Part shown: positions 1,703 through 23,411 of the stretch, piece after piece
How the letters are laid out: every line of letters starts with the position of its first letter
Position numbering within the stretch: the first letter of the stretch is position 1
From: a virus
Direction: 5' to 3' (one strand)
Virus record (IMG/VR): IMGVR_UViG_3300030103_002335
Span: 1 to 35,356 of that record
DNA length: 35,356 nt
The notes under the pieces: generated by a model
Databases searched by the model: none
What the model was told of the DNA's origin: nothing
What the model saw: only the letters and a program-made list of their open reading frames with translations
Translations under genes and position numbers: made by a program

Positions 1703-1720
1703 CTAAGTGTAAATACTTAG
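1703..1720 (+). promoter_or_regulatory. Palindromic operator CTAAGT-N6-ACTTAG (P1)
   Basis: A perfect 6+6 bp palindrome with a 6-bp spacer, ending 34 bp before the -33 box of the promoter at 1755-1785. The same palindrome at nearly the same distance precedes the promoters at 23381, 15956, 17817 and 21519. It is centred roughly 78 bp upstream of the expected start of transcription, a position more typical of an activator than a repressor. Confidence 0.65.
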
Positions 1721-1754
1721 ATTTAAAATTAATTTAAAATTTTTTTAAAAAAAG

Positions 1755-1785
1755 TTTGGAGAACTAAATAAATGTCTTACCTTTG
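1755..1785 (+). promoter_or_regulatory. Bacteroidota-type promoter P1 for the 59-aa gene
   Basis: TTTG (1755-1758), 19 bp, TACCTTTG (1778-1785) fits the Bacteroidota housekeeping consensus TTTG / TAnnTTTG. It is followed by TATCAACAAAACGAAATAAT, a leader nearly identical to that of the second 59-aa gene at 23452. Confidence 0.8.
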
Positions 1786-1825
1786 TATCAACAAAACGAA
1801 ATAATAATACAAAAAACACAACACA

Positions 1826-2005
1826 ATGACAACTTTAACAATCAACGAACAAGTAAAAGAACTAAAAGAAGTAGCAACAGAAATGTTCAAGAACGGTAAG
1901 TCTACAGAGTATGTTATAGATGCTCTTAAAACTAGAGTCTTTAATAGTGGATTTAGTAAAGAGATTAACGTTGATGCTATACAATACCTAGCAAAACAAA
2001 AGTAA
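1826..2005 (+). CDS. Duplicated 59-aa small helical protein, copy 1
   Basis: A 59-aa product starting MTTLTINEQVKELKEVATEM and predicted to be alpha-helical throughout. It is first in a three-gene plus-strand operon that interrupts the late minus-strand genes. It is 90% identical (53 of 59 residues) to the product of 23452-23631, and leader, promoter and downstream GAAA-loop hairpin are duplicated too. I do not recognise a family. Because both copies sit under promoters with the palindromic operator, one possibility is that the protein is a regulator of that network; this is inference only. There is no Shine-Dalgarno; the start follows ACACAACACA. Confidence 0.8.
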   Translation: MTTLTINEQVKELKEVATEMFKNGKSTEYVIDALKTRVFNSGFSKEINVDAIQYLAKQK

Positions 2006-2012
2006 AACTAAC

Positions 2013-2030
2013 GGGGGCGAAAGCCTCCTT
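2013..2030 (+). terminator. GAAA-tetraloop hairpin after 59-aa gene copy 1
   Basis: GGGGGC-GAAA-GCCTCC then TT. The same hairpin at 23639-23654 is GGGGAC-GAAA-GTCCCC, so the stem is kept despite base changes. The U-tract is short, so it may act as a leaky terminator, attenuator or mRNA stabiliser rather than a full stop. Confidence 0.55.
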
Positions 2031-2045
2031 TAAAAACACAACACA

Positions 2046-2186
2046 ATGAAAAAAATTGAAAGAATTTACAAAAACAAAACCTATATATTAACATTAAGAG
2101 AAGGGTGCTTAGTTAGTGCTATTGACAGTAATGGTTATAAAGTTACTAATTCAATCATTTACCACGCTTTAACTTTTTTAGTTTAA
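2046..2186 (+). CDS. Small hypothetical protein (46 aa)
   Basis: A short open frame starting at ATG 2046 after an ACACAACACA leader like that of the upstream gene, ending TAA at 2186. The product begins MKKIERIYKNKTYILTLREG and has no recognisable domain. It lies between the 59-aa gene and the coiled-coil gene, about 40 bp after the first and 20 bp before the second, which supports co-transcription. The function is unknown. The basic N-terminal half and hydrophobic C-terminus would allow a small membrane-associated or nucleic-acid-binding protein. Confidence 0.6.
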   Translation: MKKIERIYKNKTYILTLREGCLVSAIDSNGYKVTNSIIYHALTFLV

Positions 2187-2206
2187 TAAATAAATAATAC
2201 AAGACA

Positions 2207-2389
2207 ATGAAAAACAAAACAGAAGAACAAAAACAAGCACTTATATTAGTAAATAAAGCATTAAAAGATAAGAGAAAATTACTTAGGGCAGAGATTCTTA
2301 AGTTAAACGATGAGATAACCAAGAATAACGCAATGATAAATAGACTAGATGTTGATTCTTTTATTGTGCAAAGAGAAGAACGTATTTAA
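2207..2389 (+). CDS. Small coiled-coil hypothetical protein (60 aa)
   Basis: The last gene of the plus-strand mini-operon. The Lys/Glu-rich helix (about residues 5-50; LVNKALKDKRKLLRAEILKL shows a heptad-like Leu/Ile pattern) suggests a coiled coil. A strong terminator follows at 2487-2514. No family is recognised. Its position with the 59-aa gene under the palindrome-associated promoter suggests early or regulated expression, separate from the surrounding structural genes. Confidence 0.65.
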   Translation: MKNKTEEQKQALILVNKALKDKRKLLRAEILKLNDEITKNNAMINRLDVDSFIVQREERI

Positions 2390-2486
2390 GATATACAAAT
2401 GTAAGGGTAGCGTACTTACACCAAAGCAATAGTGAGTCCCAAAGATAAGGCAGTGTGGAGGAAGCCAAGCAGTTAAATCTGTGTTA
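2390..2486. other. Intergenic spacer with possible structured RNA
   Basis: About 100 bp between the coiled-coil gene and its terminator, with no open frame. It includes GTAAG-N9-CTTAC (2401-2419), an inverted repeat able to form a hairpin. It could be the 3' UTR of the mini-operon or a small RNA processed from it. Confidence 0.3.
2396..2425 (-). promoter_or_regulatory. Possible minus-strand promoter antisense to the mini-operon
   Basis: On the minus strand, TTTG (2425-2422), 18 bp, TACATTTG (2403-2396), then TATATC. It fits the promoter consensus but lacks the upstream palindrome. It would transcribe antisense to 2207-2389, possibly on towards the protease. It may be chance in AT-rich DNA. 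Confidence 0.3.
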
Positions 2487-2514
2487 GGAGGGTTTAATAG
2501 ACCCTCCTTTTTTT
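2487..2514 (+). terminator. Rho-independent terminator of the plus-strand mini-operon
   Basis: GGAGGGT-N7-ACCCTCC (2487-2507), a perfect 7-bp stem, followed by seven T (2508-2514). It lies just before the stop codon of the convergent tape-measure gene. Confidence 0.9.
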
Positions 2515-2516
2515 AT

Positions 2517-5339
2517 TTACAAGGTTGCGTTCATTTCTCTATTCCTATCTAACGCTTGTTGGCTAGTAACCTCACTACTTACTACAAACGCCCTCATTGG
2601 CTCGTTTTGTAGTTGTGCAATCTGATTTATTCCACTATTACCTACTACGTTAAAGTTAGGTGCTTGAGAACCTCCACCACTAGAAACTGTAGGTGCACCT
2701 GATGCACCACCTTCGCCACCGTCAAACTTAGCACTAGCAATCTTTACAAGTGAAGCCGCACCTGTTGTAGCAACTATACCCGCCTTAACAAAGTTCATAC
2801 CTGTTAACGCGTCTTGAGGCACTGCAAGTTGTTGCATAATACCCGAGGCGGTAGAAGCAATAGTCTGACCTATTTGCAACGCTTTGTTAACCTTAAATTG
2901 TCTCTTTGCACTTGCTTCATCTTCTGCCTCAAATGCAGAAACCAAGTCGGCTAATGCTCCGAAACCATCTGAAGCCATTGCTACCTTTTGTTGTTGTAAC
3001 TTTTTAGCGTTATCTATCTCTTTTGCAGTCTTTTTGTCATCTATGGCTATAAGGTCTTTTGCTAGTTGGTCGGCTAGTTGTTTTTCTAGTTCCGCGTTAC
3101 CTTCCGCTATAGCAAACTTATCATTATAAGACAACTGTAGTTCTTCCTTCTCTTTTTCTGCATTGTCCTTAATTAGAGAGATTCTTAACTTGTTTTGTTC
3201 GTCTTCTTTTTGTATTCTTTTCTCGTTTAGTTTAACGCCTTCATTGTAAGCCGTCTCTGCTTCTTTTATAAGTATTTTTAAACGCTTGTTAGAGGTTTCT
3301 TCTGTAAACTCAACACTAAATTCATTCGCTTTCTTTTCAAGTGCTAGACGTGCATCTATTTGGTCTTGAGTTAGTTTCTTTTCTTTGCTCTTTTCTACTC
3401 CTAATTCTTGTAATGCTTTTAGTTCTGCTTGTAATGCTTTTAAGGTTTTGTTTCTACTTGCTAACTCTCCTTTTGTACTTGCACTACTTACCGCTTCTTG
3501 TGCTAGTTTTACTTCTTCCTTTTTAAGTTCTATTAGACCTTTTAACTCCTTCGCTTCCTTAGACTGTAAGTCTGTAGACTCTTTAGTCTTTTTATTGCTT
3601 TTGTCAGTGTTCAATCCGAACTCCTCAAGTAGTCCGTTCTTTTCGTCTAGTAAGGAATTTGTTATACCTTGTTGTTCGTTGTTTTCTGCATCTGCGCTTT
3701 GTAGGTCTTTTAACTTTCTAGTCAGTAAGTCTATACTGTTTCTAACGTCCTTTTGACTACTAAGAGTTTTCTTACCTTGTGCGAATCTCTCTGCGTTTAT
3801 CTTTTGCTCCTTCTCTAACTCTCTTATAAGTTCTTGAGTCTGCTCTATCTGAGTACCGTTACTTTTAGCGAATCTTCTACCTTGTTTTATAAACTTTTCT
3901 CTTACGTCTAGTTGTGCTTGACTCGCCTCTTTTGTTTTCTCTATTAACTCTAGTCTAGCATCTGCAGACTCTTCTGCTTGTTCTAGAATCTCTTCTTCTT
4001 TCCTTTGTACTATTATCTTATTAATCAAAGACTCGCTAACCTTATCAATGGCTTTTGATAGTTCTTCATTACTTGCGGTTTCTGCGTCTATGTTACCTAG
4101 AAAGTCGGGGTACTTTTCTTGTAGGTCTCCGATAATTTCATTTCTACGTTCTTGTGTAGTATTTGTATTCCTTAACTCAGATTCTAATAAGAATAATTCT
4201 GCCCTCTCTTCCTCTAAAGATTCACTTATAAGTTTAGTAGGTGTAAGGAAGTTTAAGAGTGCAGTAGTGGCTTGAACTATACCTCTAAGCAATCCGTTAA
4301 ACATACCTTCCCCATCTTCAATAGATAGTAAGAAACCTTCCCATGCAGAACCTAACTTTGTAGTATCTCCCGCCAAGTTGTCTAGTCTTGTTTCTGCTAG
4401 TTTCTTAGCACTACCCTCTGCGCCATTTAAGGACTCTGTGAGCGCGTCAATTCTTGGCCCATTATTAGCAAGTGTAAGCAATGATTTTGCACCTACGACA
4501 CCAACTAACTCAACCGCAGTATTAAGTTGGTTAGAACTATTCTTTACCTTGTCTAGTGCTTCGTTTAATGGTATACCCGCTTTTGTTAATTGTATGAATG
4601 ACTTACTTAGACCCGTACCCGCAATAGACCCTTTTAGTCCGTTATCTGCCAAGACACCTAACAGCGCGGTAGTTTCTTCAATACTAACACCTAACGCTCT
4701 AGCGGTCGGTGCGGCTAATTTTAATGATTCTTGTAGACCCGCAAAGTCTAAGGCAGACGTGGCCGAACTCTTAGCCATTACGTCAACAACCCTAGAAGTC
4801 TCTGAGGCATCTAGACCAAATGCTCTAAGTGTAGAACCCGCTAACATTGCCGCCTCTCCTAGACCTACGTCTAATGAACTTGCAAGGTTTAGAGTCGCCT
4901 CTGTAGACTTGGTTATCTCCTCTGTTGTAAAACCTAACTTCGCTAACTCGGTTTGTAGTTGTACAACTTCTTGTGCAGTAAACTGAGTAGATGCACCCAA
5001 TGCTTTCGCTTGGTCGGATAGTTTACCCATGTCGCTAGCAGATGCGCCAAGTATTGCTTGTAGTCCACTTAACTCTTTACTAAAACCACTAAATGTACTA
5101 ACTAAAGACGTGAATACACCCGTAATGGCCTTAAACCCACCAACAACGGCACCAACTGCAAATCCTGTTAATAGGTTTTGCATATTAAACAATCCTTTAA
5201 CCGCGCCACCTACGGAAGACTTCAAGTTATTGGATTCTTTAGAAGTTTGTTTCAACTTCTTGTTCATTCCTTCTGCATCCTTACCCGTCTGCTTAAAGTT
5301 ATTGTCTACTTTTATCTTTATAGTCTTGTTCTCTGCCAT
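2517..5339 (-). CDS. Tail tape measure protein (TP901 type)
   Basis: Sets tail length and sits inside the tail tube until DNA ejection. The 940-aa product has a TP901-type core at about 80-300 (LQAILGASASDMGKLSDQAK and the pattern FTAQEVVQLQTELAKLGFTT). A hydrophobic stretch lies at ~50-75, long Lys/Glu-rich coiled coils at ~360-780, and a Gly/Ser-rich tail near 880-905. At about 1.5 angstrom per residue it implies a tail of roughly 140 nm, which suits a siphovirus; no sheath gene is seen. It is the last gene of its unit, and its ATG overlaps the stop of the 48-aa gene (TAATG). It comes after, not before, the large tail-tip-like proteins. Confidence 0.95.
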   Translation of the reverse strand: MAENKTIKIKVDNNFKQTGKDAEGMNKKLKQTSKESNNLKSSVGGAVKGLFNMQNLLTGFAVGAVVGGFKAITGVFTSLVSTFSGFSKELSGLQAILGASASDMGKLSDQAKALGASTQFTAQEVVQLQTELAKLGFTTEEITKSTEATLNLASSLDVGLGEAAMLAGSTLRAFGLDASETSRVVDVMAKSSATSALDFAGLQESLKLAAPTARALGVSIEETTALLGVLADNGLKGSIAGTGLSKSFIQLTKAGIPLNEALDKVKNSSNQLNTAVELVGVVGAKSLLTLANNGPRIDALTESLNGAEGSAKKLAETRLDNLAGDTTKLGSAWEGFLLSIEDGEGMFNGLLRGIVQATTALLNFLTPTKLISESLEEERAELFLLESELRNTNTTQERRNEIIGDLQEKYPDFLGNIDAETASNEELSKAIDKVSESLINKIIVQRKEEEILEQAEESADARLELIEKTKEASQAQLDVREKFIKQGRRFAKSNGTQIEQTQELIRELEKEQKINAERFAQGKKTLSSQKDVRNSIDLLTRKLKDLQSADAENNEQQGITNSLLDEKNGLLEEFGLNTDKSNKKTKESTDLQSKEAKELKGLIELKKEEVKLAQEAVSSASTKGELASRNKTLKALQAELKALQELGVEKSKEKKLTQDQIDARLALEKKANEFSVEFTEETSNKRLKILIKEAETAYNEGVKLNEKRIQKEDEQNKLRISLIKDNAEKEKEELQLSYNDKFAIAEGNAELEKQLADQLAKDLIAIDDKKTAKEIDNAKKLQQQKVAMASDGFGALADLVSAFEAEDEASAKRQFKVNKALQIGQTIASTASGIMQQLAVPQDALTGMNFVKAGIVATTGAASLVKIASAKFDGGEGGASGAPTVSSGGGSQAPNFNVVGNSGINQIAQLQNEPMRAFVVSSEVTSQQALDRNREMNATL

Positions 5340-5485
5340 TACTTATTTTTTAACTGTCTCTTTATTTGCTCTCTAACGCCTTTAAAGTTCTTCGGTAAGG
5401 TATTTATACCTTTTGCTATCTGAACCTCCTTAGAAGCGTTAAAAAAGGGGTCTATGCTCAATATTTCTATTATGTTCTTAATCAT
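5339..5485 (-). CDS. Small basic hypothetical protein upstream of tape measure (48 aa)
   Basis: The open frame runs from ATG 5485 to TAA 5339; the product begins MIKNIIEILSIDPFFNASKE and ends in a basic helix. It is coupled to the tape measure by a TAATG overlap and starts 3 bp after the stop of the 831-aa tail gene, so it fills an otherwise empty slot in a tightly packed operon. This position is where tail chaperones or small tail components often lie, but I recognise no family. Confidence 0.7.
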   Translation of the reverse strand: MIKNIIEILSIDPFFNASKEVQIAKGINTLPKNFKGVREQIKRQLKNK

Positions 5486-5488
5486 TGT

Positions 5489-7984
5489 TTAAGGTTGTTG
5501 TATAATTGCTTGTTGGCTACTTGCTTGTGAACCATCTGCAAAAGTGTACGTTATTGTCAGTAAGTAAGGCACTATTGAACCACTACCATCACCTTCTTCT
5601 TGTAGTACATCATCTCCACTTCCGTCTTCTAGTGCTAAGTTAAATAATCCGTCCTCTGTAAGTATTAAACCTGTGGCCGTATCATTAGCGGGTATGCAAA
5701 CTGTTATACTTTGTTCTTCTGTAATGGTTGACGGCGTAATACTACTCACTCCACTACCCGTAATGGTTGCACTAACTGCGTTCCTAGGGAATAGAACCCT
5801 AACGTCTAAACATTGTGCGTTTAAATCGGGCAACAATGGCTCTAATGTACCACCACCACCACCAACATCTTCAGAAATAACCGCCCTAAAGTCGTGTAAA
5901 AGGTCTAGATTTACCTCACCTGTGGTAATATTACTACTCATAGAGTTAATCAAATACCTCTTATTTCGTATTATTAACCTGTCATTTAGTTGTAATGTTG
6001 ATAAAATGCTAGTAGGAAGTACTGTTTTAACCTTTACATTACGGTTTTTTAGGTTATATAAGTTACTTAAGTAGGGAAAATAGTAGTTAGAGAACAGGTT
6101 ATCTTGCGAAGGCTGTCCCAATAACGTACTATAATCTGCGGAAAAGTTAAGACTTCTAGGCGTTCCGTTATGCTTTACGTCTTGACCGAAGGGTACATAA
6201 CTAGTTAACTCGTTTGTAGTACCTAAATCTCCGTCATTTAGTCTAAAATCTGCATCTAAACTCTCGTACATGTACAAAATAGTAGGTTCGGGTATGTATG
6301 AAGATAGGTTAGCATCTATATTAAACCCTACTTGTAGGTTTGTGTCTGTAAACTTATTGAACATTAAGTTCTCAAAGGGTAGTTCTATCTTAAACTCTCC
6401 ACCGTCATATTCAAATGAACTCGTAGTATTACCAAAAGAACGCTTAAACAACTTTGTAAACCTATCATTTGTTATTGACTTGCTTTCTTTGTAGTTAAAC
6501 GCAATATTCTTGTATAGTGGCACTTTATTTATCTCTATATCAGATATGTCAACGTGCTCAGTTATATCTACAATAGCACCCTTTGCATACCAATCGTCTA
6601 GAGGTTCTATTTGGTATACGTCAACCTCTTTAGTACCTGTCACTACACCTAAGTCATTTACAACGTCTACAGTCTCCTTACCTAGTCCGTAACAAGTTAG
6701 ATTGAACATATTAAGAACGCCTTTAAACATGTCAGATGCCTTCATCTTAGGTATGTACTGAGTAACGTCTAGTTCTTGTGCTAAAGTTATGGTCTGACTC
6801 GCTCTAAACTTGTTTGTAAAACTTGTAGCGGTAGGTTGGCCACCACTAAAGTCTGCTACGTTAACAAATTGAGTGTAAACCGCCTCCATGTCTAGAGATA
6901 TATCTGCGGTTGCCCTAACTCTGAACGTAAAAACAGAGTTTAACGATTCGTTATTAAAACTATATGCAGTACCAGTAGTTACAGAGTTACTAGTATCTCC
7001 AATACCCTCAATGGTTCTAGTTACTACACCGTTCTCTAGAACGTCAATGTAATATGTTTCGTTAAGGTCAGACACATTAGTCACTTTTACAGTAACGTCA
7101 TGACCTCCAAAGTACTGAATACCATTACCCGAAGGCAAGTTAGGGAATAAACTATTTATAGGTGTGTGAAATAACTTAACCTTATTCTCTAGTTCTAGGT
7201 ATGTACCCGCCTGTAAATTAGTGTTATAATTACCACTATCTGCAGACCTATTCGCTACGTCAAAGTTAACGTTCTTTGTAATGAACTGAAAGTCTTGAGC
7301 GTTCTTACAGTACAGATATGCTTTCTTAAATCTATCGTCATCTAGGAAAGTGCCGTTAAACTGTAGGTCGTATCTTGACTCTATAGCATCGAATATAGTA
7401 CTAACACTAACTGCGGGAAATAACTCGTCTGTCAAAATGGCATTAGTTCCTGTCAGAGATATATCTGTACTAGAACCGTCTGCATAAGATAGAACTCTAT
7501 TGGTAATCAATGGGAACTTAACCGCACCAAATGTATCGTCTTGAACCTCCGCTAGTACGTTGTTAGGCGTGTAAGAGAAAGAACTGTTAGACAATTCTTC
7601 TAGGTCACTAAGTAACTCATCTCCCATCTTGTCTTTAATGGCTAGAGTCTCTCCGTAAAATGTAACACCGTAACTCTCTGCTTTACCATTCTTAATACTT
7701 GCTTTCTCTATACTTATCTTGCCTTTTCTAAATGGCACTAGGTCAATCTCTATAGATGCACTTCGTCTAATGTTATGGTCTAAAGAACCGTCTATATCTG
7801 ACTCATAGAAATGCTCAAAGATTCTGTTGTTATTATTTGAAGCGGGTATATTAAAGGTGTGAGTGTAATCAGTCATTACCTTAGATATATCGTTGATATT
7901 CTGTTGACTAGAATTAACAGTTATGTTCTCATCTTGGAACAACTCTAATCGCATTCCCTCTACATATACTTGAACGCTTCTCAT
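5489..7984 (-). CDS. Large tail protein, probably tail-tip/baseplate (831 aa)
   Basis: The N-terminus (MRSVQVYVEGMRLELFQDEN, then an ISKVMTDYTHTFNIPASNNN motif) resembles a tail protein common in Bacteroidota siphophages. The central part is beta-rich. After a run of five glycines near 705, the C-terminal ~125 residues look like a separate Ig-like or carbohydrate-binding module (VRVLFPRNAVSATITGSGVS, ending LTITYTFADGSQASSQQ). A distal-tail or tail-tip role is likely from its neighbours, and the C-terminal module may contact the host surface. It overlaps its upstream neighbour by one base (TAATG). Confidence 0.7.
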   Translation of the reverse strand: MRSVQVYVEGMRLELFQDENITVNSSQQNINDISKVMTDYTHTFNIPASNNNNRIFEHFYESDIDGSLDHNIRRSASIEIDLVPFRKGKISIEKASIKNGKAESYGVTFYGETLAIKDKMGDELLSDLEELSNSSFSYTPNNVLAEVQDDTFGAVKFPLITNRVLSYADGSSTDISLTGTNAILTDELFPAVSVSTIFDAIESRYDLQFNGTFLDDDRFKKAYLYCKNAQDFQFITKNVNFDVANRSADSGNYNTNLQAGTYLELENKVKLFHTPINSLFPNLPSGNGIQYFGGHDVTVKVTNVSDLNETYYIDVLENGVVTRTIEGIGDTSNSVTTGTAYSFNNESLNSVFTFRVRATADISLDMEAVYTQFVNVADFSGGQPTATSFTNKFRASQTITLAQELDVTQYIPKMKASDMFKGVLNMFNLTCYGLGKETVDVVNDLGVVTGTKEVDVYQIEPLDDWYAKGAIVDITEHVDISDIEINKVPLYKNIAFNYKESKSITNDRFTKLFKRSFGNTTSSFEYDGGEFKIELPFENLMFNKFTDTNLQVGFNIDANLSSYIPEPTILYMYESLDADFRLNDGDLGTTNELTSYVPFGQDVKHNGTPRSLNFSADYSTLLGQPSQDNLFSNYYFPYLSNLYNLKNRNVKVKTVLPTSILSTLQLNDRLIIRNKRYLINSMSSNITTGEVNLDLLHDFRAVISEDVGGGGGTLEPLLPDLNAQCLDVRVLFPRNAVSATITGSGVSSITPSTITEEQSITVCIPANDTATGLILTEDGLFNLALEDGSGDDVLQEEGDGSGSIVPYLLTITYTFADGSQASSQQAIIQQP

Positions 7985-10760: not shown

Positions 10761-10770
10761 ATATATAAAA

Positions 10771-13078: not shown

Positions 13079-13235
13079 TATAAATATCTTTTTCTGTTTG
13101 ACTTAATGTGTGATAAGCATAAAGCGGAGAGGATAAGTCTTCGACCTCTGTTCTGTATGCCTCGGTTTTATTTCCGAGTTTTCTTATGTTCGTTAGGTAC
13201 TCATAAGAAATATTCTCGTCCGCTTCTACTATCAT
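13053..13235 (-). CDS. Small hypothetical protein after sigma factor (60 aa)
   Basis: Begins MIVEADENISYEYLTNIRKL and overlaps the sigma-factor stop by 4 bases (ATGA), so it is probably translated together with it. The acidic N-terminus and basic C-terminus show no recognisable domain. A partner or antagonist of the sigma factor would be a reasonable idea from coupling alone, but nothing in the sequence proves it. Confidence 0.6.
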   Translation of the reverse strand: MIVEADENISYEYLTNIRKLGNKTEAYRTEVEDLSSPLYAYHTLSQTEKDIYNGKTNSKR

Positions 13236-13774
13236 ATTAATTCGTATTCTTCGTTTAGGTAGTCCTGGTAATCCTCAGACACTTCTTCCCTTATTGCATC
13301 CTTACACTTCTTTAACGTTGTAAATATGCTAGAGGTTGATATACCTGTCTCTTTACTTAAGGTTCTCATAGATTTACCTGTATCTCTGTAGAGTTTAAAT
13401 AATAACTCATCGTACCAATGTAAATCTTTAACAACTGTATCTACCTTATCAAAGATTTTATTTAGTGCATCTGCTCTCTGTATCTCTTCAAGGTCATTAC
13501 TTATGCCCTCGCCTAGATAGTTAAGAACTTCTGTACTTACTTTGTTCTTGTTGTTCTTTTGTTTCTTGAAGTCTAGAAACATATTTCTTAACACGAAATA
13601 CATATATGCTTTTCTAACTTCGCCATCTTTGACTAACTGTTCTTCTCTACAGTATTTAATAATCTTGATGTATGATTCTTGTACTATGTCCTCTGCGAAG
13701 AAGTCCTCTCCAAACCCCTTCACAGTTGACACATACTCGTCGTGATGTTGTGCTACTTTAGTAATCCAACTCAT
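13232..13774 (-). CDS. Phage sigma-70-family (ECF-like) sigma factor
   Basis: A 180-aa protein that would redirect host RNA polymerase. Region 2-like segment at ~27-77: AEDIVQESYIKIIKYCREEQ, then AYMYFVLRNMFLDFKKQ with the R-N pattern that contacts the -10 DNA. Region 4-like helix-turn-helix at ~125-165: LFKLYRDTGKSMRTLSKETG, then ISTSSIFTTLKKCKDAI. Size and two-domain layout match ECF or phage late sigma factors. It precedes the structural genes in the unit, so it is well placed to switch on the late units that share the 24-bp element. A non-sigma helix-turn-helix protein is less likely. Confidence 0.75.
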   Translation of the reverse strand: MSWITKVAQHHDEYVSTVKGFGEDFFAEDIVQESYIKIIKYCREEQLVKDGEVRKAYMYFVLRNMFLDFKKQKNNKNKVSTEVLNYLGEGISNDLEEIQRADALNKIFDKVDTVVKDLHWYDELLFKLYRDTGKSMRTLSKETGISTSSIFTTLKKCKDAIREEVSEDYQDYLNEEYELI

Positions 13775-14056: not shown

Positions 14057-14084
14057 TCTGTTTGATTTATTTGTTATTAATTGA

Positions 14085-15576: not shown

Positions 15577-15587
15577 TGTTTTGTGTT

Positions 15588-15896
15588 TTAAAGTTCTATC
15601 GTTTCTATTGAAAAGTAGTTTGAAATTGTACCATTTTTAGTTGTGTTTGTCATATTCATAACATCTATATCTCTGATATCTTTTACTTGGTCTACATCTA
15701 TTATCTTTTTAAGCCCGAACTCGTTTATATTTTGTTGTCTTAGTTGATAAAACTTATCTTCACAAGAGACTAAACAAACTAACTCGCCACATACGTTAAC
15801 TTTGTCTTGTAATACTTTTAACACCATTGTCTTAGGAGGAGTTAAGTTTTCTCTTTGTTTTTTAGTTCTGTTAATTCTGAATTTTAAATTTTTCAT
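15588..15896 (-). CDS. Hypothetical protein, first gene of the P3 unit (102 aa)
   Basis: I start this gene at ATG 15896 (MKNLKFRINRTKKQRENLTP) because promoter P3 and its AC-rich leader lie directly upstream. A start at 15938 would put the coding region across the promoter. The protein has a basic N-terminus, a Cys-containing beta segment (VNVCGELVCLVSCEDKFYQL) and an acidic C-terminus. I recognise no family. It is separated by only 11 bp from the secreted-protein gene. Confidence 0.65.
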   Translation of the reverse strand: MKNLKFRINRTKKQRENLTPPKTMVLKVLQDKVNVCGELVCLVSCEDKFYQLRQQNINEFGLKKIIDVDQVKDIRDIDVMNMTNTTKNGTISNYFSIETIEL

Positions 15897-15925
15897 TGTG
15901 TGTTGTTTTTCGTTGTTTGTTGATA

Positions 15926-15956
15926 CAAATATAAGCACTTATTTTGTTTCTGCAAT
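15926..15956 (-). promoter_or_regulatory. Promoter P3 (internal, drives 15896 and secreted protein)
   Basis: On the minus strand: ATTG (15956-15953), 19 bp, TATATTTG (15933-15926), then TATCAACAAACAACGAAAAA. The -33 box is one base off TTTG. The -7 box and leader match P1 and P5. Confidence 0.75.
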
Positions 15957-15974
15957 AGAAAAGTGAAAAAACTT

Positions 15975-16313
15975 TTATTTTATTTTATCTTCTAAGTGAT
16001 TATACTTAGATAACAATGCCTCGCCTCTAGACTCTAACTCTTTCTGTAGGTTAGCCATCGCCCTCCAAGCCACCTTTGTAGAGTGTAAGATACCGTCATC
16101 ATCCATTGTACCACATTCTAGCAAGTGTCTAGATAGTGCATCTAACTCGTCTCCACTCTTAGACCTATCCCAATGTACGGGAGTGTTAGGATTGTGTTGT
16201 TGATTTGCTATCCTTGAGGCCTTTGCTACCTCCCGAATCGCATCGGGAAAGTAGTTAAGGAACCCTGTAAATACGGGTATGTCTTTTCGTTCTTTGTGTG
16301 TTAATTTATCCAT
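15975..16313 (-). CDS. DUF5664-like protein, possible dATP/dGTP diphosphohydrolase-type domain
   Basis: A 112-aa protein with the family-like sequence PVFTGFLNYFPDAIREVAKA, then HNPNTPVHWDRSKSGDELDA, RHLLECGTMDDDGILHSTKV and AWRAMANLQ. These His/Asp/Glu-rich helices resemble the DUF5664 family of phage proteins, described as an N-terminal domain of dATP/dGTP diphosphohydrolases. It could adjust the nucleotide pool during replication. No PurZ-like partner is seen, so a modified-base pathway is not indicated. It overlaps the nuclease gene by 8 bases, and its 3' end contains operator P3. Confidence 0.7.
   Translation of the reverse strand: MDKLTHKERKDIPVFTGFLNYFPDAIREVAKASRIANQQHNPNTPVHWDRSKSGDELDALSRHLLECGTMDDDGILHSTKVAWRAMANLQKELESRGEALLSKYNHLEDKIK
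15992..16009 (-). promoter_or_regulatory. Palindromic operator CTAAGT-N6-ACTTAG (P3), inside a coding region
   Basis: A perfect CTAAGT/ACTTAG palindrome 35 bp upstream of the P3 -33 box. It lies within the last codons of 15975-16313, showing that the site is kept even where it must also encode protein. Confidence 0.65.
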
Positions 16314-17507: not shown

Positions 17508-17534
17508 TTTGTTATTGGTTTTTATTTGTTTGTG

Positions 17535-17753
17535 TTATTTCTTAGGCAAGTGTTGTTTTTCGTCTATATGGTAAGTTATAAAACTTGTCGCCTCTCTTTT
17601 ACTGCCAAGTTTAATGTAAGATAGGTTTAACCAATTACCGCTCTTATCAGAACTTATGACAGTGTAGTAGTCTTCGTATCTACAATCGTAAAAAGTTTTC
17701 CCTATAAGGCTAGATGCTTCGCTTTCAATGTGTGTCTTAATTGTGTTAGTCAT
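17535..17753 (-). CDS. Small hypothetical protein, first gene of the P4 unit (72 aa)
   Basis: Begins MTNTIKTHIESEASSLIGKT and is probably a small beta-rich domain (YYTVISSDKSGNWLNLSYIK). It directly follows promoter P4 and its ACACACAATG-type leader, so it heads a sub-unit with the recombination genes. There is no recognisable family. Confidence 0.65.
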   Translation of the reverse strand: MTNTIKTHIESEASSLIGKTFYDCRYEDYYTVISSDKSGNWLNLSYIKLGSKREATSFITYHIDEKQHLPKK

Positions 17754-17786
17754 TGTGTGTGTTTTTTGTTGTTTTTAATTATGATG

Positions 17787-17817
17787 TAAAGGTAATGCTT
17801 TATTTTAGTTCTGCAAG
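17787..17817 (-). promoter_or_regulatory. Promoter P4 (recombination genes)
   Basis: On the minus strand: CTTG (17817-17814), 19 bp, TACCTTTA (17794-17787), then a leader ending ACACACAATG. Both boxes are one base off consensus, so an activator may be needed. The promoter overlaps the 3' end of the NinG gene. Confidence 0.65.
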
Positions 17818-18341
17818 TTTTTTTTAATTTTTTTTTTCTTTTCTTTGAATATCTTAGTAATACTACGTAGTTCTTCCTTAGTATATGTACGCTTATCGTG
17901 TGCCTTTTGGTGTAATTCAAACAATTCTACACCACCTATACGCTTCTCAATACCTACTTGATATTCAATGAGATTACCATGTCTGTGTTTGTTACAGTTT
18001 ACGCATTGACCATGTATGTTGGACTCGTCAAATCTTACACTAGGGTATCTAGAACTTTCGAAATAGTGACCCGCGTCAAACTTACCCCTTAGAGGTTTGT
18101 CACACGAGATACAATCCTTACCCCTGTCTCTCTCTCTGATATAATCGTTAACATGCTTTTGAGTCTTCTTAGTCAATTCAGATACAGTCTCTAGTTCTTC
18201 CTTTAGTCTTTTCTTCTGAATGTTCCACGCTTTATTATTGGCTTCTAGAACCCACGCACTAACACACGCTTTTTTTAAGCAATGCTTTTGCTTTGCGTTC
18301 AATGGTTTGAATGGCTCTTTACAGTGTTTACACTTCTTCAT
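17805..18341 (-). CDS. ninG: NinG-like recombination protein
   Basis: A 178-aa protein with three Cys/His clusters: CKHCKEPFKPLNAKQKHC (4-21), CISCDKPLRGKFDAGHYF and FDESNIHGQCVNCNKHRHGN. The last two are the HNH-like core of lambda NinG (Rap), a structure-specific endonuclease that helps resolve recombination intermediates. Long charged helices separate the N-terminal zinc finger from the core, and the C-terminus is Lys-rich. It overlaps the coiled-coil gene by 4 bases. Promoter P4 and its operator are embedded in its 3' end. Confidence 0.9.
   Translation of the reverse strand: MKKCKHCKEPFKPLNAKQKHCLKKACVSAWVLEANNKAWNIQKKRLKEELETVSELTKKTQKHVNDYIRERDRGKDCISCDKPLRGKFDAGHYFESSRYPSVRFDESNIHGQCVNCNKHRHGNLIEYQVGIEKRIGGVELFELHQKAHDKRTYTKEELRSITKIFKEKKKKIKKNLQN
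17853..17870 (-). promoter_or_regulatory. Palindromic operator (P4), CTTAGT-N6-ACGTAG
   Basis: An imperfect copy of the palindrome, exactly 35 bp upstream of the P4 -33 box and inside the NinG coding region. One half matches the ACGTAG form, the other the CTAAGT form with one change. Confidence 0.5.
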
Positions 18342-18631: not shown

Positions 18632-18658
18632 TTGTTTTTGTTTTTGCGAAGTTAATAA

Positions 18659-19588
18659 TTAAAATCCGAAGTCTTCTAGTCTTTCTGAACTTTTTCTAAT
18701 GTTGTTTAAAACATTTGCTTTATAAGTGGTGTACCTAAGTGTCTTCAATGGGTCTTTATGCCCTTGTGTGAATCCGTTACCGTTGTTGAACTCAAAGTAC
18801 ATAGGCTCATTTAAGTTGGTGCACTCCCCACCTGTAGTTCTATCCTTTATTTTTTCTACAGTAATCATTGTTGTAAACTTCATTGTGGGGTGAGACACAA
18901 GTCTGTGAATGGTAAACATATCGTCACAACGATTCAAAAATGATTTTCCACCTTCGATATTTGCCTTGAGCGGAGATTTCAAATGACCCGCCCATTCGTG
19001 ACCTTCGGGGTATATGTTGCCCGCCCTACCCGCTTCACTATTTGGGTGACTAGATACATATACAGTTTTCTGCGTTCTATTACAGAACTCCCTCGCTTGG
19101 TTCAAAAACTTGTAGTTACCCGCATGAGTCATGTCTCTGTCTAACCCTGTAAAGGGGTCAATAAGACACGCATCGGCATCTGTACCCTCAAATACGTTAA
19201 ATAAATCTTCGGGCTTGTATAACTTAGAGTTGTCTACAAAATCAAAGTACTGCTCTAGGTATACATAAGACGACCTAATGACGTCTAAGGATATTTCATT
19301 GTAGGAAGTACCTACATACATTTGTATCAAGTCTCTCATTACATTGCCACTTGAATTCTCGCCTGTCCAAACACAAAACTTTAAATCATGTTTAATTGCT
19401 AGTGTCAAAGCGTACCAAGTAAACCAATAAGTTTTACCCACGTTGTCGTGCCCCATGAATATATTCAGTTGACCCCTTTTAAATCTGAGGTACTTGTCTA
19501 GGTCTGAACCTATATCTAAACCTTGTTTAATTCTACCCTCTCTAAAGTCTTCTAGGTATTGTAAATCTGTGCCTTTCTGTTGTATCAT
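18659..19588 (-). CDS. RecA/DnaB-fold ATPase, probable replicative helicase
   Basis: A 309-aa P-loop ATPase: Walker A GHDNVGKT (46-53), Walker B DACLIDPF with Asp144, and a sensor-like VYVSSHPNSEAGR (177-189). This is the RecA-fold core of DnaB/gp4-type hexameric helicases, here without the N-terminal primase or DnaB domain. Overlap with the winged-helix gene (4 bases) supports a helicase-loader pair at the phage fork. Other AAA_25/RadA-like ATPases are the alternative. Confidence 0.8.
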   Translation of the reverse strand: MIQQKGTDLQYLEDFREGRIKQGLDIGSDLDKYLRFKRGQLNIFMGHDNVGKTYWFTWYALTLAIKHDLKFCVWTGENSSGNVMRDLIQMYVGTSYNEISLDVIRSSYVYLEQYFDFVDNSKLYKPEDLFNVFEGTDADACLIDPFTGLDRDMTHAGNYKFLNQAREFCNRTQKTVYVSSHPNSEAGRAGNIYPEGHEWAGHLKSPLKANIEGGKSFLNRCDDMFTIHRLVSHPTMKFTTMITVEKIKDRTTGGECTNLNEPMYFEFNNGNGFTQGHKDPLKTLRYTTYKANVLNNIRKSSERLEDFGF

Positions 19589-20208
19589 TTTTTAAGTTGT
19601 TTTTTATATTTTTCGTAATGTGTTAATAAGTGGTCATCTGCCTGTGTCGGTTGGTTAGTGTTGTTAAAGTTATTCCTAGACCAAGTCGCTAGTCTTCTAG
19701 ATACATCGAACACCTTTTCTTTCTCAAACCTCATCTTTGAACCTCTAGGTGATTTCTCCGTCCAATAGTCTGAGAAGTTTTTAAGTACAGTCTTACCATA
19801 CTTATCTAGATGAGGGACTAAAGACTTTTTGAATTCGTATATTCTGTCCTCAATAGATTTAACATTCTTAACAGCCTTGGCCTCTTTTTGTTCTGTCTCA
19901 TCTATTTGGTACTTATCAAAGTTTAATACAGTTATAACCGTTCCCCTAGTGTTGCTCTCCACCTTAATCTCTTTACTATTCTCTAGGTTCTTTAATGCAG
20001 TTCTAATGTTAGAAACGCTTAAACCTAATGCCTCAGACAAGAACGCTCTACCTGTAACAGTTTGACCTCTTTTGATAGTTACACCCTTACAGTTTGTGTC
20101 CTTTGTATTAGCGGTTAGCAACAAGTGAATAAACACTCTAGAACTTATTGGGTTCTTGTACCACTCCCATGCCAACATTTGTCTATGTAGTCTTATGAAT
20201 CCTTTCAT
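19585..20208 (-). CDS. Winged-helix replication initiator / helicase loader-like protein
   Basis: A 207-aa protein with the typical phage start KGFIRLHRQMLAWEWYKNPI, then FIHLLLTANTKD, RGQTVTGRAFLSEALGLSVS and NIRTALKNLENSKEIKV followed by TVITVLNFDKYQ. This is the winged helix-turn-helix of phage replication proteins of the DnaD/initiator group. The C-terminal ~80 residues have a second helical domain (RIYEFKKSLVPHLDKYGKTV). Between a DnaA-like gene and a helicase gene, it probably binds the origin and loads the helicase. Confidence 0.75.
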   Translation of the reverse strand: MKGFIRLHRQMLAWEWYKNPISSRVFIHLLLTANTKDTNCKGVTIKRGQTVTGRAFLSEALGLSVSNIRTALKNLENSKEIKVESNTRGTVITVLNFDKYQIDETEQKEAKAVKNVKSIEDRIYEFKKSLVPHLDKYGKTVLKNFSDYWTEKSPRGSKMRFEKEKVFDVSRRLATWSRNNFNNTNQPTQADDHLLTHYEKYKKQLKK

Positions 20209-20597
20209 TACTTGTAGTTTACATCTGAATAAACGCCTTGTTCCATTCTTGACTGTATTACCCTAAAGTCGTGCTGAGTAGTTGCATTGTTAACATCGTA
20301 AACTATGCTAAACTTTGGAGTGGAATACTTAACCTCAAAAATATCTCTTAGGTTCTTAGTGTCTCTAATTAGTATCTTGTCATTTAAATACTCTAGTTCT
20401 TCGTATTTGTTTAGGGCGTGTACTACCGTACTGTGGTCTAAATTAAACATTGCACCTATCTCTATCAACTTAATCTCGTGACGCCTAAGTAAATTCATTA
20501 GATACATTCTAGCGTGTATAACGTGTCTTCTTCTGTCTTTTTGGTCTAGACCTTCTAGTCTAATAACCTCTTTTACTTCTCTTATTAGTGTTTCCAT
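20208..20597 (-). CDS. DnaA domain IV-like DNA-binding protein
   Basis: A 129-aa protein; residues 26-66 (IHARMYLMNLLRRHEIKLIE followed by IGAMFNLDHSTVVHALNKY) match the helix-turn-helix of DnaA domain IV, including the DHSTVVHA signature that reads DnaA boxes. There is no AAA+ domain, so it is a stand-alone DNA-binding module. It could bind iterons in the control regions or compete with host DnaA. It is coupled by one-base overlap (TAATG) to the initiator-like gene. Confidence 0.8.
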   Translation of the reverse strand: METLIREVKEVIRLEGLDQKDRRRHVIHARMYLMNLLRRHEIKLIEIGAMFNLDHSTVVHALNKYEELEYLNDKILIRDTKNLRDIFEVKYSTPKFSIVYDVNNATTQHDFRVIQSRMEQGVYSDVNYK

Positions 20598-20604
20598 TTT
20601 GTTA

Positions 20605-20931
20605 TTACCATTCTTCTCGTTCGTACTCTATTCTCTCGTTTTGGTCTAGCCATTCTAGAAGACCGTACTCAGTCGCATCCTGTTCAACCTCGTCTTCTAT
20701 CATTGAGAACAACGCTCTCTTTTCGTCTTTTGTTAACTTGATATTAACGCTTACATCGTCATCGTATTGAACCGCCTCGTCTATATCTAGGTCAATCTTG
20801 ACAGTGTTAAACATTTGGTTGTAAGTTCTAAACGACCAAGTAACTTCTATGTTTTTGGTCACATCATTTTCTAAAACCTCATAGTTCGCGTATGAGTTTG
20901 TGATGGTTAGGTTTTTAGGATTAAATTTCAT
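20605..20931 (-). CDS. Acidic hypothetical protein (108 aa)
   Basis: Starts MKFNPKNLTITNSYANYEVL; beta-rich first half, then a strongly acidic helical C-terminus (DEKRALFSMIEDEVEQDATE). The net negative charge suggests a possible DNA mimic or protein-binding factor, which cannot be proven here. It is one of four small early genes upstream of the replication genes. Confidence 0.6.
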   Translation of the reverse strand: MKFNPKNLTITNSYANYEVLENDVTKNIEVTWSFRTYNQMFNTVKIDLDIDEAVQYDDDVSVNIKLTKDEKRALFSMIEDEVEQDATEYGLLEWLDQNERIEYEREEW

Positions 20932-20933
20932 TG

Positions 20934-21170
20934 TTATAGGTTTTTAAATTTTAGGTTATTAAATCTTTGTACTAGGCGTAACTTTGCGCTAATCGTAATG
21001 TCGATGTCGTGGTACATTTTACGCTTACCCTTGTCACTCATAAACGAGTGAGAGTGTCTAAGAGATTCTTTTAACATCTCCGCTTTTTTATCTGCTGACT
21101 GAATCACCTCGTTGATAGTTGATAAAACCTCTAGTGTTTTCTGTACTGTGTTTGTGTTGTGTAATTGCAT
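20934..21170 (-). CDS. Small helical hypothetical protein (78 aa)
   Basis: Begins MQLHNTNTVQKTLEVLSTIN. Two amphipathic helices flank HSHSFMSDKGKRKMYHDIDI; the end is basic. No known family. It is the second gene of the early unit behind promoter P5, with 11 bp to the previous stop and 2 bp to the next gene. Confidence 0.6.
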   Translation of the reverse strand: MQLHNTNTVQKTLEVLSTINEVIQSADKKAEMLKESLRHSHSFMSDKGKRKMYHDIDITISAKLRLVQRFNNLKFKNL

Positions 21171-21181
21171 TTGTTATTTAT

Positions 21182-21460
21182 TTATTTTATGTTTTTGAAA
21201 TGTAACCAATCTACTTCTGCTTCGGTTCCGTACTGCAAGTGCACCTCGTCTAAGTCGTATTTATTTACTACTTTTTCTATTTGATTGTGTAACATATCTA
21301 AATCTATATAGTTGTCCTTGTCTAAAAATCTAGCGGTGTTAATATCGTATAAATCTAGTACGCCATCCTTACGGGTCTTCATTAGTAGTAAGTCATAGTC
21401 TAAGCCATCTTGTAATAAAATCTTGGTTAGTTCTGTTTTAATTCCTTTAAAGTATTTCAT
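21182..21460 (-). CDS. First gene of the main early unit (92 aa, unknown)
   Basis: I start it at ATG 21460 (MKYFKGIKTELTKILLQDGL) because promoter P5 and its ACACACAATG leader end exactly there. The longer frame to 21553 would cover the promoter. The protein mixes beta strands with an acidic middle (YDINTARFLDKDNYIDLDML). No family is recognised. As the leading early gene, a host-takeover role is possible but not shown. Confidence 0.65.
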   Translation of the reverse strand: MKYFKGIKTELTKILLQDGLDYDLLLMKTRKDGVLDLYDINTARFLDKDNYIDLDMLHNQIEKVVNKYDLDEVHLQYGTEAEVDWLHFKNIK

Positions 21461-21488
21461 TGTGTGTGTTTTTCGTTGTTTGTTGATA

Positions 21489-21519
21489 CAAAGGTAAACA
21501 AACTTTTGACTTATGCAAC
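21489..21519 (-). promoter_or_regulatory. Promoter P5, main early promoter
   Basis: On the minus strand: GTTG (21519-21516), 19 bp, TACCTTTG (21496-21489), then TATCAACAAACAACGAAAAA, a leader almost identical to P3. It drives the replication/recombination unit. Confidence 0.75.
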
Positions 21520-21555
21520 ACCTAACCCAAAAAAAATTTAAATTTATTTTCATTA

Positions 21556-21573
21556 CTACGTAGTTCTACGTAC
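21556..21573 (-). promoter_or_regulatory. Palindromic operator (P5), CTACGT-N6-ACGTAC
   Basis: A variant of the 18-bp palindrome (last base off), 36 bp upstream of the P5 -33 box. The inner TACGTA-GTTC-TACGTA is a perfect inverted repeat. It directly abuts the iteron array of control region B. Confidence 0.55.
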
Positions 21574-21826
21574 TATCCGCCAACCAATTAACCAACTGAA
21601 ACCTAGTGCCACACTACAAAGTAGAGAGATAGCCACCAAGCAATCCGCCAACCGAATCATTTTATCCACCAACGTTTTAGCCAACCGCAGACCAATACCA
21701 CACTAGGAATCCGAGAGATAGCCACCAACCAATTAACCACTCTATATATATAATACTATTACTCTATATATTCACTACGTTCATATATATTCGTAATACT
21801 ATTATATTTGTCCGCAACTTAATTTG
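21574..21826. repeat. Divergent control region B with five iterons; candidate replication origin
   Basis: Noncoding DNA between the early and lysis units. Five TANCCRCCAA-type 10-mers lie at 21574, 21630, 21642, 21663 and 21719; the one at 21642 begins AA. A bipartite 31-bp unit, CCACACTA-N7-GAGAGATAGCCACCAA, is repeated at 21609-21639 and 21698-21728. CCAACCAATTAACC motifs occur at 21580 and 21725. An AT-only stretch (21741-21810) resembles a DNA-unwinding element. The same motifs, inverted, are in control region A. Iterons, AT-rich DNA and nearby initiator genes make an origin possible; an operator array is the alternative. Confidence 0.55.
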
Positions 21827-21850
21827 TCGGTCGTGTAAACACTCCCTACA
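21827..21850 (+). promoter_or_regulatory. 24-bp late control element, copy B (faces lysis unit)
   Basis: Exact copy of the element at 1480-1503, oriented towards the lysis genes, 41-62 bp before the possible first start codons. A TATATTTG box at 21803-21810 lies just upstream but lacks a -33 match, so the element might instead overlap the start region of that promoter. Confidence 0.6.
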
Positions 21851-21857
21851 TTAAAAA

Positions 21858-21875
21858 CTAAGTGTTTTTACTTAG
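21858..21875 (+). promoter_or_regulatory. Palindrome CTAAGT-N6-ACTTAG in the lysis leader
   Basis: The same 18-bp palindrome as P1-P3, but here between the 24-bp late element and the first lysis gene. In this place bound protein would more likely block than activate transcription, which would keep lysis off while early promoters are on. Confidence 0.55.
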
Positions 21876-21912
21876 ATGCTAAACAAAACAAGTGTTTATA
21901 AGTTTTATTTGT

Positions 21913-22074
21913 ATGCATAGTAAGATTTTAGCACAGATTTATTTTTTATTCGGTTATTTAACTAGCATTGCAATGTTTTTAAGCCCCGAACTATATTTAA
22001 AGTTTTTAGGAGTTTTTATCGCTTCGCATTTAACGTACGTCATCGTATCACAAATAGAACAAAAAGATGTATAG
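21913..22074 (+). CDS. Small membrane protein of the lysis unit (53 aa)
   Basis: ATG 21913 gives 53 residues; a GTG at 21892 in frame would add seven. Two hydrophobic segments (about residues 5-20 and 26-43; ILAQIYFLFGYLTSIAMFLS, then YLKFLGVFIASHLTYVIV) suggest a two-span inner-membrane protein with a charged C-terminus. Its stop overlaps the start of the next gene (ATGTATAG). It could be a second holin or antiholin; no family is recognised. Confidence 0.6.
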   Translation: MHSKILAQIYFLFGYLTSIAMFLSPELYLKFLGVFIASHLTYVIVSQIEQKDV

Positions 22075-22528
22075 TCAGTTAATTTTGTTGTTAGGGAATA
22101 TTAAAGTAAATGCAATGAAGTTAGGGAGTATATTGCTATCATTCTTTTTACCCATTCAAGGTATTCTAATCGGTATTGGTTTCGCAATATCACTAGATAC
22201 TTTTACAGGTATATGGAAAGCAATCAAAAAAGAAGAAAGTATAACATCTAGGAAATTAAGTAGATTAATTTCTAAGACTCTATTGTATGAGTCTGCTATT
22301 ATGCTTTTCTACGTTATGGATTATTTCCTAATAAACGAGTTAGTTACTCAGTTGTTTAGCGTTCCTTTCCTAGTTACTAAATGTGTAGCGTTAGTATTAT
22401 TCTCAATAGAAGCCATAAGCATAAACGAGAACATAAAAGAGATTACAGGTGAAGACATTTGGTCTAGAGCCAAAGCGTTACTATCTAGAATTAAGCAAAT
22501 AAAAAGCGAAGTAGACGAGATTAAGTAA
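22067..22528 (+). CDS. Phage holin (Phage_holin_4 family type)
   Basis: A 153-aa protein (or ~137 if started at the internal ATG 22115). The family features are visible: hydrophobic helix PIQGILIGIGFAISLDTFTG followed by IWKAIKKEE and SRKLSRLISK, two more hydrophobic helices, then FSIEAISINENIKEITGEDI. It would form holes in the inner membrane at lysis time. A 1-base overlap (TAATG) couples it to the amidase. The long charged C-terminal helix (~125-153) is usual for the family. Confidence 0.85.
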   Translation: MYSQLILLLGNIKVNAMKLGSILLSFFLPIQGILIGIGFAISLDTFTGIWKAIKKEESITSRKLSRLISKTLLYESAIMLFYVMDYFLINELVTQLFSVPFLVTKCVALVLFSIEAISINENIKEITGEDIWSRAKALLSRIKQIKSEVDEIK

Positions 22529-22938
22529 TGCGTAATATTTCAAAATTAATCATTCACTGTACTGCAACGCCCGAAGGTAGACACCACGACGTAGCAGACA
22601 TTCGTAGGTGGCATTTAAACAGGGGTTTTAACGACATAGGATATCACTACCTCATCCATTTAGATGGAGCTATTGAGGAAGGTAGACCAATAACAAAACA
22701 AGGTGCTCATTGTAGCGGTGAGAATAGAGGTTCTATCGGTATTTGTTACGTCGGAGGTATGTCTAAGGATATGAAGAAAGCCAAAGACACACGAACCAAA
22801 CAACAGAAGGATTCTTTAGTTAAGTTAATGACAGAATTAATTTACAAATACAACAAGGACATGACTATACATGGTCACTATGAGTTTGCCAATAAAGCGT
22901 GTCCCTCCTTCGATGTCTCAGAATATGCGAATTTATAG
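22528..22938 (+). CDS. N-acetylmuramoyl-L-alanine amidase endolysin (T7 lysozyme-like)
   Basis: A 136-aa zinc amidase (Amidase_2) that cuts the bond between muramic acid and the stem peptide. Zinc ligands: His10 in LIIHCTATP, His117 in HGHYEF and Cys125 in NKACPSF; Tyr40 in DIGYHYLI and Lys123 correspond to the catalytic residues of T7 lysozyme. There is no signal peptide, so it depends on the holin. The end of the gene overlaps the start of the spanin-like gene by 14 bases. Confidence 0.95.
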   Translation: MRNISKLIIHCTATPEGRHHDVADIRRWHLNRGFNDIGYHYLIHLDGAIEEGRPITKQGAHCSGENRGSIGICYVGGMSKDMKKAKDTRTKQQKDSLVKLMTELIYKYNKDMTIHGHYEFANKACPSFDVSEYANL

Positions 22939-23335
22939 TTTTATTTTACTTCTAACGCTCTTTAGTTGTTCTAGCAACTATCACTACCGAAAAGCAATCA
23001 AAAAGGGCTTAGAGCCGATTATATCAAGTGATACTATCAGAGTGTCTACGATTGACTCAATACCTGTGATTAAAAACGATACCATAATCTACGAGAGATT
23101 TTTCTCCTCAAAAGATACTATCATTAAATATCAGAACGTTTATGTGCCTAAGACTCGCCTAGAGATTAGAACCGAATACAAGACGATTCGAGACACTATA
23201 CGATTGACTAGAGTAGTAGAGAAAGCGAAAGCAAAGGCGTCTAGACCTAGGGGGGTTTTAGGTATAAATTGGACACTCGTTTTAATAGTTCTAGGTGTAG
23301 TTCTAAGTATTTTAATGTATCTAAAGTCTAAGTAA
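22925..23335 (+). CDS. u-spanin-like lipoprotein with C-terminal membrane anchor
   Basis: I start at ATG 22925 rather than 22871, because this gives a clean lipoprotein signal: MRIYSFILLLTLFSC with lipidated Cys15. The 136-aa protein then has a charged periplasmic segment with beta-like heptads (DTIRVSTIDSIPVIKNDTII, RTEYKTIRDTIRLTRVVEKA). It ends in a membrane helix (GINWTLVLIVLGVVLSILMY, ~110-132). An N-terminal outer-membrane lipid anchor plus a C-terminal inner-membrane anchor is the layout of unimolecular spanins such as T1 gp11, which fuse the two membranes in the last lysis step. Position after holin and endolysin fits. Confidence 0.75.
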   Translation: MRIYSFILLLTLFSCSSNYHYRKAIKKGLEPIISSDTIRVSTIDSIPVIKNDTIIYERFFSSKDTIIKYQNVYVPKTRLEIRTEYKTIRDTIRLTRVVEKAKAKASRPRGVLGINWTLVLIVLGVVLSILMYLKSK

Positions 23336-23345
23336 TTCTACTTAG
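23328..23345 (+). promoter_or_regulatory. Palindromic operator CTAAGT-N6-ACTTAG (P2)
   Basis: A 7-bp perfect arm (CTAAGTA-ATTC-TACTTAG) overlapping the stop codon of the spanin-like gene, 35 bp before the P2 -33 box. Confidence 0.65.
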
Positions 23346-23380
23346 TTTATAAAAATAAATCAACTTTTTTTTACTTTTCC

Positions 23381-23411
23381 CTTGTGGGTAACTAGAAAAG
23401 AACTATATTTG
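23381..23411 (+). promoter_or_regulatory. Promoter P2 for the second 59-aa gene
   Basis: CTTG (23381-23384), 19 bp, TATATTTG (23404-23411), then the same TATCAACAAAACGAAATAAT leader as P1. It gives independent transcription inside the plus-strand lysis region. Confidence 0.75.

Follow-up and report, generated by a model that had tools for sequence, protein, structure and literature searches.

A palindrome at a fixed distance upstream of Bacteroidota-type promoters in several phage lineages

The promoter module

We describe a promoter module in a tailed phage represented by the virus record IMGVR_UViG_3300030103_002335 (35.4 kb; this whole stretch of 35,356 nucleotides is henceforth called the window), whose nearest named relative, judged by the terminase, is Nonlabens phage P12024L (55% identity). 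In the module, an 18-bp inverted repeat, CTAmGT-N6-ACkTAG, ends 57, 58, 58, 58 and 59 bp upstream of the TAnnTTTG/A box of five promoters. This dyad site is real, and it is conserved across several distinct phage lineages. Comparison of the sequences suggests that the palindrome is an upstream activator site within a phage promoter module, read most likely by a host dimer of the LuxR/NarL type; we put the probability of this reading at roughly 45%. Little is known about how Bacteroidota phages switch on their genes, and one spacing shared by several lineages offers a way to predict the early promoters of phages that have not been cultured.

The initial annotation had placed five such promoters in the window, two on the + strand and three on the - strand, and all the positions given for them and for their palindromes were borne out. 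The features are listed below; the gap runs from the palindrome to the -7 box, open reading frames (ORFs) are named by their coordinates, and G002 is a related phage.

1703-1720, + strand: palindrome CTAAGTGTAAATACTTAG of promoter 1; exact match, gap of 57 bp to TACCTTTG
1756-1785, + strand: core promoter 1 (TTG, 19 bp, TACCTTTG); drives the gene of a 59-amino-acid (59-aa) protein, 1826-2005
23303-23345, + strand: promoter 2, degenerate upstream copy (23303-23320) and palindrome CTAAGTAATTCTACTTAG (23328-23345); gap of 58 bp, orthologue at 3978 in G002
23382-23411, + strand: core promoter 2 (TTG, 19 bp, TATATTTG); drives the second 59-aa gene, 23452-23631
15992-16009, - strand: palindrome CTAAGTATAATCACTTAG of promoter 3, inside ORF 15975-16313; gap of 58 bp
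15926-15955, - strand: core promoter 3 (TTG, 19 bp, TATATTTG); drives ORF 15588-15896
17853-17870, - strand: palindrome CTACGTAGTATTACTAAG of promoter 4, inside the NinG-like ORF 17805-18341; gap of 58 bp, orthologue at 32428 in G002
17787-17816, - strand: core promoter 4 (TTG, 19 bp, TACCTTTA); drives ORF 17535-17753, then the ERF and exonuclease genes
21556-21573, - strand: palindrome GTACGTAGAACTACGTAG of promoter 5; gap of 59 bp
21489-21518, - strand: core promoter 5 (TTG, 19 bp, TACCTTTG); drives ORF 21182-21460 and the replication operon

The palindromes starting at 1703, 15992 and 23328 match the consensus exactly, and those at 17853 and 21556 carry one mismatch. Between the end of the palindrome and the TTG lie 35-37 bp made up of A- and T-tracts, and a further 19 bp separate the TTG from TAnnTTTG in all five promoters. 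The -33 boxes read TTTG, CTTG, ATTG, CTTG and GTTG, as had been described; the TTG is invariant, and the full TTTG occurs in one of the five. The -7 box is an exact TAnnTTTG in four promoters and TACCTTTA in the fifth. Two of the palindromes do lie within coding regions (promoters 3 and 4), and the one at 23328 also takes in the stop codon that ends ORF 22871-23335. The degenerate second copy of the dyad at 23303-23320, 25 bp upstream of the one at 23328, had been overlooked.

Significance and conservation of the module

To evaluate the module against chance, 300 windows were simulated under a second-order Markov model: 299 had no module and one had a single module, compared with the five observed. 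Within 10-200 bp downstream of all palindromes in the window, in both orientations, only two other matches to TAnnTTT[GA] were found, at scattered gaps. Palindromes counted alone, with up to two mismatches, showed only a moderate excess (16 versus 8.9 expected). The signal resides in near-exact palindromes combined with the spacing.

The same spacing emerged from database scans. When 2.9 million viral contigs were scanned with the gap left free between 45 and 75 bp, promoter-like matches appeared at 57 and 58 bp, and matches at other gaps were mostly unrelated sequence. A relaxed scan for TAmGTA-N4-TACkTA returned 35 stretches; measured from the 16-mer, the gap was 58-59 bp in nearly all of them. 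The reversed-palindrome control gave eight stretches with scattered gaps. The composite scan of 84,980 species genomes gave 11 stretches, mostly chance-like except those in Tannerella.

The scan of related phages with the composite motif, which the initial annotation had suggested as a check, found the palindrome kept at the same spacing. In G002 (locus L126), whose terminase is about 82% identical to that of the window, there are six modules at 57 or 58 bp. Three orthologous pairs between the window and G002 retain the gap of 58 bp, while only 18, 24 and 27 of 36 spacer positions are identical. Because the spacing is the same in relatives whose flanks have diverged, the module is kept by selection, as had been claimed. 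Likewise supported are a core promoter of the Bacteroidota type and a layout like that of an upstream activator site. No module was found in four relatives with 72-73% identical terminases (G019, G020, G023 and G025), or in the isolates P12024L, 11b and three Muminvirus genomes.

Close relatives carry the same dyad and core ahead of differing first genes, as if promoter cassettes had recombined in the leader. In the window, the leader and the 59-aa gene are duplicated (1782-2041 and 23408-23667, 90% DNA identity), and the dyads and spacers of the two copies differ. This arrangement suggests recombination at the promoter leader.

Distribution over phage lineages

The composite scan also led to a second group of phages (G006-G010, later joined by G034 and G521) that have some genes in common with the window phage. 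Each genome of this group has one module, located at an early-type operon promoter with the leader TAAGGTCAATAAGG, and the copies inspected contain two tandem dyads 24 bp apart. New carriers came from the relaxed scan (the lineages G519/G523/G524 and G522, and tentatively G525 and G528); probably two to four lineages beyond the two main groups carry the site at the same spacing. Several of the further lineages have few genes or none in common with the window phage, and no regulator. Matches in L344, L338 and L352 look like chance. The description of the module as phage-wide is an overstatement: the window has five such promoters, and the other lineages usually have one per genome. The off-consensus -33 boxes had been taken as a sign of dependence on an activator. 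This is weak evidence: the TTG is never disrupted, and the full TTTG is present in one promoter of the window and in some of the second group.

Two other repeats were seen near promoters. In the distant phages L150, L157, L173 and L178, a different inverted repeat, GATAAATCnATTTTATC, is centred 77.5 bp upstream of the -7 box and is possibly an analogous site of different sequence. In G008, positions 33601-34100, just downstream of the early-operon promoter, are dense in short repeats, with one 9-mer occurring up to 10 times in 400 bp.

Nature of the site

The sites were compared over 40 distinct modules containing 27 distinct palindromes, at least one of which is probably a chance match. The outer arms hardly change among them, and position 4 (A/C) and position 15 (G/T) vary independently of each other. 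Covariation between the two arms at these positions, tested as proof of a dyad, was absent among the 27 palindromes. Since the half-sites vary independently, the palindrome is better explained as a protein site than as a hairpin: its two half-sites would be recognised by a protein, in the simplest case a symmetric dimer. The consensus fits TAmGTAg-NN-cTACkTA, that is, inverted heptamers separated by 2 bp, and does not match the CRP/FNR-type sites TGTGA-N6-TCACA or TTGAT-N4-ATCAA.

Several known systems resemble the module in part. Housekeeping promoters of Bacteroidota consist of a -33 TTTG and a -7 TAnnTTTG; the phage modules share the TAnnTTTG box, a TTG at 18-19 bp and an A-rich leader, but add a dyad at a fixed distance upstream, which to our knowledge is not part of the known consensus. 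The late promoters of P2 and P4 are activated by Ogr/Delta, a phage zinc-finger protein, through a dyad TGT-N12-ACA at about -55, and serve late genes. Similar to these, the phage modules have a short dyad at a fixed distance upstream of several promoters and a degenerate -35-type box, and the activator would touch the polymerase from upstream. However, the phage dyad is CTAmGT-N6-ACkTAG, about 80 bp upstream, in place of TGT-N12-ACA near -55. Response regulators of the LuxR/NarL type bind inverted heptamers in a 7-2-7 arrangement. The phage site TAmGTAg-NN-cTACkTA is such a 7-2-7 inverted repeat, starting with TA(C), and the palindrome occurs at the promoters of a GerE regulator and a histidine kinase in Tannerella; on the other hand, the phage encodes no such regulator, and the sequence differs from the NarL heptamer of E. 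coli. In the best available placement, the mechanism belongs among the activator-dependent phage promoters, which are already known, and the interesting part is its spread over unrelated phages together with the chromosomal look-alikes. A partial literature search found no description of such a promoter module, and no paper that deals with DnaA-domain regulators of phages or with TACGTA sites of Bacteroidota.

Proposed mechanism

We propose that an upstream activator-binding site is built into the module. The module would comprise the dyad TAmGTA-N4-TACkTA (usually with outer C/G), 35-37 bp of A/T-tract DNA and the core TTG-N18/19-TAnnTTTG, which would be read by the host RNA polymerase. A homodimer would bind the dyad, whose centre would lie about 80 bp upstream of the presumed start, provided that the -7 box is at its usual place. 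The bound dimer would then recruit or stabilise the polymerase from upstream, in an activation of class I type. The dyad-binding protein would most likely be host-encoded and of the LuxR/NarL response-regulator type. We favour a host-encoded protein for two reasons: phages whose gene contents barely overlap have the site and its geometry in common, and no regulator, and some Bacteroidota carry this palindrome at promoters of their chromosomes. A host regulator had been named before as one candidate; it ranks highest in our analysis as the putative activator. A more specific scenario, conceivable though doubtful, is that unrelated Bacteroidota phages converged on the site of a host LuxR-type response regulator, with the promoter geometry of that regulator, so that early transcription would be tied to a histidine-kinase signal. 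If a host response regulator does read the site, phage gene expression would be linked to a host sensory pathway, and an apparently undescribed chromosomal regulon would be exposed. The dyad site is a direct bait for finding the activator.

The chromosomal copies are of two kinds. In Tannerella metagenome-assembled genomes (MAGs) from termite samples, CTACGTAATTTTACGTAG stands at a gap of exactly 57/58 bp in the promoters of a gene for a GerE-type response regulator (L302, 1355-2005) and of one for a TPR histidine kinase. Tandem pairs of TACGTA-N4-TACGTA, 33-35 bp apart with the proximal copy abutting the -33 TTG, occur in Tannerella and in some Flavobacteriales. The tandem loci were collected from G117 and G244 (Flavobacteriales; 14 and 15 copies, respectively) and from the Tannerella MAGs G047-G049, as loci L295-L308 and L333-L336; over 196 genomes there were 66 matches, compared with 20 in the control. 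These promoters look like an undescribed host regulon.

Several results weigh against activation through the dyad by a host protein. In near-identical siblings within the second group (L259, L260, L261, L266 and L271), the core promoter and leader are kept and other DNA replaces the dyads; these phages use the same core promoter without the dyad, which is therefore dispensable there. G525 and G528 are tentative carriers with one site each. CTAmGT-N6-ACkTAG is not enriched in Flavobacteriaceae (34 matches versus about 46 for the reversed control in 80 genomes), and a general regulon of this family was dropped as a candidate on that count. The strict form occurs in just one of 396 Flavobacteriales genomes. 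Given these two results, the supposed host regulator would be present in some species at best.

Alternative explanations

The activator could instead be encoded by the phage. The initial annotation had suggested the duplicated 59-aa protein, which we rejected: it is absent from G002, with its six modules, and from the second group, and records that encode it can be without the dyad (G016 and G017). A rival candidate, as regulator or as replication initiator, is the following protein.

20208-20597, - strand: DnaA-domain-IV-like protein of 129 aa; Pfam Bac_DnaA_C, E-value 3.2e-10, 40.3 bits against a cut-off of 31.5

Its assignment agrees with a profile match to PDB 1j1v (2.4e-12) and with a structure model (predicted local distance difference test, pLDDT, 85) whose fold matches DnaA domain IV. 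As an activator, this protein would autoregulate its own operon and, in the genus of the window phage, read other promoters too. All eight phages of the two main groups that bear the module and are well sampled encode it, as do further loci of the second group, and no other recognisable helix-turn-helix regulator is common to both groups. In the second group its gene follows the dyad on the same strand, 1.4-2.7 kb further downstream, and the protein is absent from the module-less relatives G019, G020, G023, G025 and 11b. However, the five siblings without the dyad have a DnaA-domain protein that is about 95% identical, the isolates Muminvirus and P12024L have the domain and no dyad, and G525 and G528 give no match to it; some small carriers also give none, but these are fragments. 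Moreover, an alignment to E. coli DnaA shows that the key DNA-contact residues R22, H55 and T57 are retained, so that a target similar to the DnaA box is predicted; the dyad is not a DnaA box. In the window, TTWTNCACA boxes are not enriched (1 versus 4.2 expected), and near-DnaA-box repeats, TATCCRCCAAC, are present. By our reading of the sequence, the DnaA-domain gene of G523 lies just ahead of a DnaB-like helicase gene, which suits a role in replication. We consider activation by this protein unlikely. Another small phage protein of no known family, possibly a different one in each lineage, is distinctly unlikely as the activator: phages commonly encode small activators and the windows contain many small ORFs without a family match, but the eight carriers in the two main groups all have only ERF, a spanin-like protein and the DnaA-domain protein in common, and lineages with almost no genes in common nonetheless have the same site and spacing. 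The gene-family comparison of carriers found no phage gene that tracks the dyad and no regulator gene common to all carrier lineages. Pfam scans of 40 window proteins and 37 G009 proteins gave no Ogr zinc-finger activator, and none of the window and G009 proteins matched a GerE-domain regulator.

Other readings concern the function of the site itself. The palindrome may be an operator for a repressor or silencer that shuts the promoters off at some stage. The tandem dyads of the second group would suit such a role, as would an additional exact palindrome that the initial annotation had overlooked.

21858-21875, no strand assigned: extra exact palindrome CTAAGTGTTTTTACTTAG, without a promoter at 57-59 bp

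Its end lies 37 bp upstream of the ATG (21913) that opens the lysis cluster, a position suited to blocking a promoter. Its counterpart in G002 (2502-2519, CTACGTAAAAACACGTAG) lies at the same distance of 37 bp from the homologous ATG, and the arms of the two differ by matching changes, A to C and T to G. This dyad may affect the lysis operon by a route other than that of the five in the modules, e.g., by blocking the operon promoter. For the modules themselves, repression is quite improbable. In the five window promoters and in dozens elsewhere the dyad keeps a fixed distance from the core boxes, about 45-70 bp upstream of them, which is an unusual place for a repressor; a centre about 80 bp upstream of the start would be typical of upstream-contacting activators. 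The window proteins tested included no member of a repressor family. Finally, the inverted repeat could act as a nucleic-acid hairpin (terminator or processing site) or as a replication element. Some copies fold as a weak stem (-3.5 to -4.8 kcal/mol), but two of six are without a full stem, positions 4 and 15 do not covary, and the spacing is fixed to promoters, not to gene ends. A hairpin or terminator was ruled out on the pairing evidence, and this group of functions is hardly credible as a whole.

Other observations

The TATCCRCCAAC repeats form a cluster at 21574-21729, beside the replication operon, and occur at 1611-1689, upstream of promoter 1; the cluster is a candidate replication origin. 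A small sigma-factor-like protein (13232-13774, - strand; PHROG 1740, 9.1e-8), conserved in module-less relatives, is a possible late-gene sigma factor. The record has a terminal direct repeat of 567 bp (2-568 and 34790-35356) with only 95.4% identity, perhaps the result of a circular genome assembled across two variants.

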